Part shown: positions 46,531-48,493 of the stretch, piece by piece
Layout of the letters: every line of letters starts with the position of its first letter
How positions within the stretch are numbered: the first letter of the stretch is position 1
DNA from: Streptomyces sp. AW19M42
GTDB taxonomy: Bacteria; Actinomycetota; Actinomycetes; Streptomycetales; Streptomycetaceae
NCBI GenBank assembly: GCA_000470535.1
Contig: CBRG010000096.1
Coordinates: 1 to 64,000, forward strand
Direction: 5' to 3'
Length of the DNA: 64,000 nt
Position numbers and translations under genes: made by a program
Notes under the pieces: model-generated
The model's input: the letters and a program-made list of their open reading frames with translations, nothing else
Databases searched by the model: none
What the model was told of the DNA's origin: nothing

Positions 46531-47661
46531 TCAGCCGGAGAGGCGGACCGGCATGATCAGGTACTTGTACGCGTCGTCCGCCTCGGCATCCACGGCGGCG
46601 CGGCCGCTGAGCAGCGCGGGCTTGGTGGACGTCGTGAAGGAGAGCTGGGCGACGGGGGAGTCGATCGCGCTCAGGCCGTCCAGCAGGAAGGTCGGGTTGA
46701 AGGCGATCGAGATGTCGTCGCCCTCCAGGACCGCGTCCACGCGCTCCACAGCCTGTGCGTCGTCGCTGGAACCCGCCTCCAGGATCAGCACACCCTGCTC
46801 GAAGCTGAGCCGGACCGGGGTGTTCCGCTCGGCCACCAGCGCGACGCGCTTGACGGCCTCGACGAACGGGGCGGTCTCGATGACCGCGACCGTGTTGAAC
46901 TCGGTCGGGAAGAGCGTGCGGTACTTCGGCAGGTCGCCTTCGAGCAGCCGGGTGGTCGTCCGCCGGCCGGCGCCCTCGAAGCCGATGAGGCCCTCACCGG
47001 CACCGGAGCCCGACAGCGCCAGCGTGACCGTGTCGCCGCTGGTGAGCGCCTTGGCGGTGTCCAGCAGGGTCTTGGCGGGGACCAGGGCGACGGCGGAGGC
47101 GTCGGCGTTCTCCGGCTTCCAGAGGAACTCGCGGACCGCGAAGCGGTAGCGGTCGGTGGAGGCCAGGGTGACGGTGTCGCCCTCGATCTCGATGCGCACA
47201 CCGGTGAGGACGGGCAGCGTGTCGTCGCGGCCCGCCGCGATGGCCACCTGGGCGGCGGCAGAGGCGAAGACCTCGCCGGGGACCGTCCCGGTCGCCGTCG
47301 GCATCTCGGGCAGTGCGGGGTACTCCTCCACAGGAAGGGTGTGGAGTGTGAACCGCGAGGAGCCGCAGGCCACCGTCGCCCGTACACCGTCTGTGGAAAT
47401 CTCCACCGGCCGGTTGGGCAGGGCACGGCAGATGTCGGCGAGCAGCCGGCCGGAGACCAGCACCGTGCCGTCCTCCTCGATCTCGGCGTCCACCGAGACC
47501 CGGGCCGATACCTCGTAGTCGAAGCTGGAGAAGCTGAGGGCGCCGTCCTCGGCCTTCAGCAGCAGCCCCGCAAGAACGGGCGCCGGCGGCCGGGCCGGGA
47601 GGCTACGGGCCACCCAGGCCACAGCCTCCGCGAGTACATCGCGCTCCACCCGGATCTTCAC
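46531..47661 (-). CDS. dnaN: DNA polymerase III beta sliding clamp
   Basis: 376 residues, three repeated clamp domains forming a ring dimer that holds polymerase III to DNA. The C-terminus YLIMPVRLSG is the conserved end. GTG at 47661 is supported by AGGAGG seven bases upstream and by the family start KIRVERDVLAEAV; the longer frame upstream to 47778 is not needed. Transcribed leftward away from oriC. Confidence 0.97.
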   Translation of the reverse strand: MKIRVERDVLAEAVAWVARSLPARPPAPVLAGLLLKAEDGALSFSSFDYEVSARVSVDAEIEEDGTVLVSGRLLADICRALPNRPVEISTDGVRATVACGSSRFTLHTLPVEEYPALPEMPTATGTVPGEVFASAAAQVAIAAGRDDTLPVLTGVRIEIEGDTVTLASTDRYRFAVREFLWKPENADASAVALVPAKTLLDTAKALTSGDTVTLALSGSGAGEGLIGFEGAGRRTTTRLLEGDLPKYRTLFPTEFNTVAVIETAPFVEAVKRVALVAERNTPVRLSFEQGVLILEAGSSDDAQAVERVDAVLEGDDISIAFNPTFLLDGLSAIDSPVAQLSFTTSTKPALLSGRAAVDAEADDAYKYLIMPVRLSG

Positions 47662-47778: not shown

Positions 47779-48493
47779 TCGGTGCTGCTCGGGGTCAAGT
47801 CGCGACCAGCGGTCCGGGGAGCTCCGGCGCCGAGTTGTGCACAGGTCCCACTTCGAAGCGGATTCCGGGCTAACTAGAGGTAGTAGTAGTAGTAGGGCCT
47901 GTGGAAACCGTGGATAACGTCGTTTCCGCAGGTCAGGCCCTGTTTTTTATCCACCGGTCCTGTGGGCGGAACCGGTGGACAACCCGGGGTTTCTGTGGAC
48001 ACCCGAAAGTTCTGCACAACCGGTACACAGGGCAGGGGGGTTTCTCCCCAGGTCTGTCCCCAGCTTTACCCAGCTTCCCCACAGCCCAACCGACCCTCTT
48101 GGTGTGACGCCTTTCACTCGGGGCGGTGAAAGCGGGTGTCGTGTTGCCGAACAGTGGACAGAGGTGTGGAGAAGCCCGCAGAAGCTGGGGACAAGAAGGT
48201 CCGGCCTGTGGGCCGCCGGTGGACAACGCTGACGCGAGCCTGTGGACGAAAAACTTGTCCACAGGCTGTGGATCATTGTTGACCACAAATCCCCAGGCCT
48301 CTGAGCTGGCCTGATGGAGTATCGGCTGCCATGCCTGTGGAAGCAGTATGGACAACTTTTAAATCCCCAGGCTGTGGAGGGGGGATTGTGCCCAGATCTG
48401 TGGAGAACGGCCCCTCCGCGGCAGGTATTCGAACAGCGGAGACGGGTCCGAGCCGCGCGAACCTCGTGCACAGCGGCCCCGGAACCAACTGAG
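47779..48493. other. oriC: Chromosomal replication origin oriC
   Basis: About 700 bp non-coding between dnaN and dnaA, densely filled with DnaA boxes (consensus TTGTCCACA). The exact match is at 48255. One-mismatch boxes are at 47835, 47909, 47947, 47974, 47994, 48165, 48218, 48241, 48279, 48347 and 48399. Weaker ones are at 47900, 48075, 48153 and 48267. Both orientations occur. Two exact-or-near boxes flank the 48241-48287 core, the densest part. This is the classical layout of the Streptomyces origin, which has about 19 boxes. Confidence 0.97.
47881..47917 (+). promoter_or_regulatory. DnaA-trio-like unwinding element at oriC
   Basis: Five perfect TAG triplets (47881-47895), a GC cluster (GGCC), then TGTGGAAAC (47900) and CGTGGATAA (47909), two DnaA-box-like 9-mers abutting head to tail. 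Read 3'-5' from the boxes outward, the upper strand gives GAT repeats, the polarity described for DnaA-trios of the Bacillus basal unwinding system. It lies just inside oriC at the dnaN edge. Functional assignment is inference. Confidence 0.55.

Follow-up and report, generated by a model that had tools for sequence, protein, structure and literature searches.

Where does the origin of a high-GC Streptomyces chromosome open? The question is raised by the dnaA-dnaN region of Streptomyces sp. AW19M42, which lies in a stretch of 64,000 nucleotides (assembly GCA_000470535.1, contig CBRG010000096.1, positions 1-64,000, + strand), hereafter the window. Between the two genes, at 47881-47917, TAG is repeated five times (TAGTAGTAGTAGTAG) and is followed without gaps by GGCC and by two tandem DnaA boxes, TGTGGAAAC and CGTGGATAA. 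An earlier reading of the sequence (the original prediction) had described this pattern, and direct rereading of the window reproduced it exactly. In the dnaA to dnaN direction, the element reads TTATCCACG GTTTCCACA GGCC CTA CTA CTA CTA CTA. The original prediction suggested that the Streptomyces origin could open here, and both the sequence and its comparison among genomes support this. We conclude, with a probability of about 0.85, that this Streptomyces origin has its basal unwinding system (BUS) in this element and that the duplex would open at 47881-47895, toward dnaN.

The order, spacing and polarity of the parts had been said to fit the BUS of Bacillus, and they do: the boxes are co-oriented, a GC cluster follows, and the triplets are DnaA-trios (3′-GAT-5′) pointing at dnaN. 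The published search rule for tandem co-oriented boxes allows up to 2 mismatches in the better box and up to 4 in the other (PMC8287927). When compared with TTATCCACA, the minus-strand boxes at 47900-47917 have 1 mismatch (TTATCCACG) and 2 mismatches (GTTTCCACA). For the spacer, a distance of at most 16 bp from the first box to the trios (peak 10-13) and a GC-rich part of about 4 bp are expected; here the trios lie 13 bp from the distal box and are separated from the proximal box by the 4 bp of GGCC. A BUS should have at least three NAN trios, preferably 3′-GAT-5′, on the correct strand and in the correct polarity. The window has five GAT trios, and three were present in all of the 101 Streptomyces genomes described below; three trios are cited as the minimum for B. 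subtilis (PMC8287927). TAGTAGTAG gave three overlapping matches in the window, all at the element and none elsewhere (mean of 0.02 in 100 dinucleotide shuffles), and TAGTAGTAGGGCCTGTGG, an 18-mer spanning the junction, occurred only once in the 8.0-Mb assembly.

For conservation within the genus, we compared 101 Streptomyces genomes, one per species and including that of the window. DnaN was found in all 101, and the DNA upstream of its gene was taken. Every genome (101/101) had trios 1-3 (CTA CTA CTA) and a 4-nt cluster next to two abutting boxes, all at fixed spacing. The cluster, in minus-strand reading, was GGCC in 65 genomes, GCCC in 18, GGGC in 11, AGCC in 5, and GGAC and AGGC in 1 each. 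The proximal box was GTTTCCACA in 68, GTATCCACA in 30, GAATCCACA in 2 and ATATCCACA in 1, and the distal box differed from TTATCCACA by 1 mismatch in 82 and by 2 in 19. When the 960 bp preceding dnaN were aligned with MAFFT, 47886-47905 ranked first among all 20-mers, with a mean majority share of 0.98 versus 0.75 for the region. The 101-genome comparison thus supports, for Streptomyces, the assignment of the window copy as a canonical BUS member on its sequence.

The outer trios were less constant. Trio 4 was TAG in 18/101 genomes (trio-strand middle base A in 63, C in 22 and G in 16), and trio 5 in 6/101 (middle base A in these 6 and G in the other 95). At least four perfect TAGs were found in 18/101 genomes, and five in the genome of the window alone (1/101). 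The original prediction would have been refuted by triplets varying freely in number and sequence among close relatives. The core of three does not vary at all, and variation is confined to the tail. Nucleotide 30 after the cluster was G in 100/101 genomes, showing that the array has a fixed length, and slippage of the TAG run was rejected for this reason. With three copies invariant and the array length fixed, TAG copies 4 and 5 arose by substitution.

High-GC origins had been said to lack an obvious AT-rich unwinding region. This is too strong for the present case, as no 27-mer in the 960 bp was less stable than the trio stretch (47870-47896) in nearest-neighbour calculations (-30.2 kcal/mol); next came 48340-48366 (-32.2 kcal/mol) and 48266-48292 (-34.5 kcal/mol). 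The least stable 27-mer overlapped trios 1-3 in 97/101 Streptomyces genomes.

The origin might open at one of the other two weak segments, with the trio block serving only to bind DnaA. In instability, these segments rank directly behind the trio stretch (second and third among the 27-mers upstream of dnaN), and with windows of 12-18 nt about half of the genomes had their least stable point elsewhere. In 30-nt bins, however, their conservation was 0.86 and 0.79, compared with 0.98 for 47886-47905, and the segment near 48.25 kb is both more stable and less conserved than the trio stretch. When two Streptomyces loci were scanned for the box-box-cluster-trio pattern, the runner-up match scored 23.3-23.8 versus 31.6. 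We regard opening at these segments as improbable.

A mainly regulatory role of the block in dnaN expression (as a DnaA-controlled promoter or leader), instead of one in unwinding, is very improbable. It would suit this explanation that the block lies upstream of dnaN, with trio 1 at a distance of 178-318 nt in the 100 genomes with an unmasked dnaN start, and that conserved sequence is also found downstream of the block. To our knowledge, however, a trinucleotide register ending after trio 5 has no promoter counterpart. Moreover, Bacillota share the order of boxes, cluster and trios, and there it is an established unwinding site (PMC8287927). A chance TAG microsatellite beside ordinary boxes would account for five perfect copies in only 1/101 genomes, but it can be dismissed given the three invariant copies and the fixed array length.

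By analogy with B. subtilis, DnaA would bind the two tandem boxes (47900-47917), and the AAA+ domain of the proximal DnaA would engage the GC cluster and seed an ATP-DnaA filament on the + (TAG) strand. Two bases per trio would be captured between neighbouring DnaA subunits, and the duplex would open at the array and then on toward dnaN. The residues for this reading are present in the DnaA of the window. In an alignment to PDB 8btg, its E335, N339, I342, I345, R354, K374, E375 and E380 correspond to identical residues of B. subtilis DnaA (E183, N187, I190, I193, R202, K222, E223 and E228), the exception being G348 in place of N196. All five residues expected to read single-stranded DNA (Asn187, Ile190, Ile193, Arg202 and Glu228) are found, as N339, I342, I345, R354 and E380. 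The origin of S. coelicolor has 19 DnaA boxes (PMC3411110), and no unwinding site is named in the part of that article available to us. No functional test of a BUS in Streptomyces was found in the literature covered.

The element shares with the B. subtilis BUS (Richardson 2016, 2019; Pelliciari 2021, 2023) the two co-oriented boxes, the GC cluster, the strand and polarity of the trios, the dnaA-dnaN location and the trio-reading residues of DnaA. The two differ in three respects. The boxes are 9 bp apart here but 8 bp apart in 70/71 Bacillota sites; about five trios are seen in Actinomycetes and six in Bacillota; and trios 2-5 often have C in the middle in Actinomycetes, unlike in the B. subtilis BUS. 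The Bacillota figures come from 80 named loci, 71 of which had the same arrangement after dnaA above the score threshold. Of their 284 middle bases at trios 2-5, 259 were A, 14 C, 8 T and 3 G. In the DNA unwinding element of Thermotoga maritima, which has an ‘eTrio’, three tandem TAG repeats are essential for opening (PMC10316083), a likeness to the present element; here, the TAGs come directly after the GC cluster. The oriC of the actinomycete Kocuria rhizophila has the same dnaA-dnaN location, with annotated DnaA-trio motifs and a DNA unwinding element. That annotation concerns one genome, and the available part of the article does not mention cytosine in the trios (PMC12500396).

The frequent C was analysed in the class Actinomycetes. 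A sample of 158 genomes gave 155 with a dnaN match, and 88 loci outside Streptomyces were examined. The block, with boxes 9 bp apart, was found upstream of dnaN at 78/88 loci and in 29/34 families. The trios could be counted without selection for them because in 77/78 cases the same site also ranked first when only boxes and cluster were scored. With one locus per genus (57 genera), the middle base of trio 1 was A in 51 and C in 6, and that of trios 2-5 (n = 228) was C in 114, A in 69, G in 37 and T in 8. A or C was thus found at 183/228 positions (80%) versus 46% predicted from the composition of the region (p = 4e-26), and C exceeded G by 114:37 versus 47% C expected (p = 5e-13), both tests treating positions as independent in loci that are related. 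One locus per family (29) gave A or C at 94/116 positions and C:G of 58:20. In 21 genera outside the first sample, the corresponding values were 73/84 and 31:10. The third trio base was T in 172/228 (trios 2-5 of the 57 genera; loci L103-L192). At trio 5 the fraction of middle A or C was still 0.77, but at trio 6 it was 0.33, which sets the limit of the array at about five trios. Three consecutive trios were recognized in 11/57 genera under NAN and in 41/57 under N[A/C]N. A separate pattern search gave matches in 125/393 genomes of the class; the reversed control pattern matched in 15 genomes, so some of the pattern matches are due to chance.

From these sequences, Actinomycetes probably use natural ‘C-trios’, and their trio alphabet is likely to be 3′-[G/A][A/C]T-5′ rather than 3′-NAN-5′, with arrays at many origins made up mostly of central-C trios. 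The window copy itself has no C-trios, all five being canonical GAT. A or C in the middle would be expected if DnaA reads the amino group carried by both bases. Asn187 of B. subtilis DnaA is in contact with the amino group of the middle adenine, and cytosine is the substitution that works best at this position, with a similar rate in vitro and better activity than G or T in vivo (PMC10721633). Glu183, Asn187 and Ile190 were unchanged at all Actinomycetes loci where they were seen (60, 61 and 62 loci). For the C-rich state, by contrast, at least 15 changes were counted on a DnaA tree of 63 loci, a weakly resolved tree with only 11/58 inner branches well supported. Arrays with four C-trios were within the least stable 5% at 27 nt in only 4/9 cases.

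C-trios might also be trios decaying under GC-biased mutation, without any recognition of C. In line with this, there is a weak positive correlation between the number of C-trios and local GC (rho = 0.32, p = 0.005), C does not exceed G in the other classes of Actinomycetota (32 C, 29 G), and trio 5 of Streptomyces went to G (95/101), breaking the amine rule. Against decay stand the excess of C over G in Actinomycetes (114:37), its recurrence in the further genera (31:10) and the drop in middle A or C after trio 5. Between 29 pairs of close relatives, moreover, A-C transversions made up 26/53 middle-base differences versus 47/416 in the flank (p = 6e-10). We consider this explanation unlikely.

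Residue 202, which contacts the first base, was Arg at 24, Gln at 26 and Lys at 13 of the Actinomycetes loci where it was seen (Gln or Lys in 39/63). The mean number of C-trios among the five was 2.8 with Gln, 1.7 with Arg and 0.7 with Lys (26, 24 and 13 loci; p = 2e-5), an association that is not phylogenetically independent. Co-evolution of C-trios and residue 202 was dropped as an explanation, as only 4 changes occurred on the DnaA tree, too few independent pairs. Residue 196 (Asn196 in B. subtilis, the partner of the third base) was mostly Asp or Gly.

Several observations weigh against these conclusions. The stability result depends on window size, with 84-97/101 genomes at 21-80 nt and only 39-59/101 at 12-18 nt. 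With a middle G at trio 5 in 95/101 Streptomyces genomes, the number of trios used in this genus may be only three or four. The scan used gave no block at 10/88 Actinomycetes loci. In the other classes of Actinomycetota, only 37/65 loci reached the threshold, with boxes 8 bp apart in 18 and 9 bp apart in 19, and A or C occupied 109/148 middle positions. In the B. subtilis structure the third base is not captured, yet its T is conserved in Actinomycetes to about the same degree as the A/C rule.

At three Actinomycetes loci of a single genus (L115, L118 and L122, family f11), the 700 nt upstream of dnaN contained no block, and the origin in these cases may differ or lie somewhere else.

The coordinates of the features are given in Table 1. 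The element had been placed at the dnaN edge. This holds for the order, but trio 1 begins about 234 nt upstream of the inferred dnaN start (GTG, 47659-47661). The genome of the window carries a second, divergent DnaN-like gene (contig C324, 1222-2346, in G000; TIGR00663, E = 8.9e-63).

Table 1. Features of the dnaA-dnaN region in the window.
Feature	Position	Strand	Basis
DnaA-trio array, TAG x5 (3′-GAT-5′ away from the boxes)	47881..47895	+	Sequence
Trio 1; invariant core, trios 1-3	47893-47895; 47887-47895	+	Sequence and 101 genomes
GC cluster GGCC between boxes and trios	47896..47899		Sequence
Trio-proximal DnaA box GTTTCCACA	47900..47908	-	Sequence
Distal DnaA box TTATCCACG, abutting the proximal box	47909..47917	-	Sequence
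20-mer with the highest conservation in the 960 bp upstream of dnaN	47886..47905		MAFFT alignment, 101 genomes
Least stable 27-mer of the same 960 bp; expected first opened segment	47870..47896		Nearest-neighbour energies
dnaN (sliding clamp), on the side the trios run toward	46531..47661	-	Start codon inferred from homologues
dnaA	48579..50387	-	Alignment to PDB 8btg and residue table

Other parts of the origin region were also conserved. The second and fifth best conserved 20-mers were 48142-48161 (0.957) and 48101-48120 (0.939). The latter (CGAGTGAAAGGCGTCACACC, minus strand) lacks an obvious DnaA box and may be bound by another factor. Conservation extends past the trios toward dnaN (47834-47880), and this stretch may belong to a dnaN promoter or to the opened segment; in Streptomyces, the sequence around trios 7-9 is, for example, AGAGTTAGC or AGAGAGAGC. 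A hairpin or cruciform CCTGCGGAAAC...GTTTCCACAGG around the distal box was set aside by eye, the genomes with GTATCCACA having no matching change in the left arm. AdpA sites were not enriched near the block, with 9 matches (up to 1 mismatch, 3-kb locus) versus 8.1 by chance.

Pelliciari et al. searched for NAN trios and suspected that deviant trios without a middle adenine exist (PMC8287927). Our literature search (DnaA-trio with Streptomyces, cytosine, Mycobacterium or Actinobacteria) gave no report of natural C-trios. Streptomyces may well be among the organisms in Supplementary Table S2 of PMC8287927. C-trios seem to be the variant conjectured in print, and the natural sequences seem to bear on the open question of deviant trios. 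For Streptomyces, the element offers, within a large origin, a precise and testable candidate of 37 bp for the site of opening. A search limited to NAN trios would miss or misplace many of the Actinomycetes origins sampled. If C-trios are read as proposed, a high-GC origin would be opened by base capture through an amino group and would need less AT richness.
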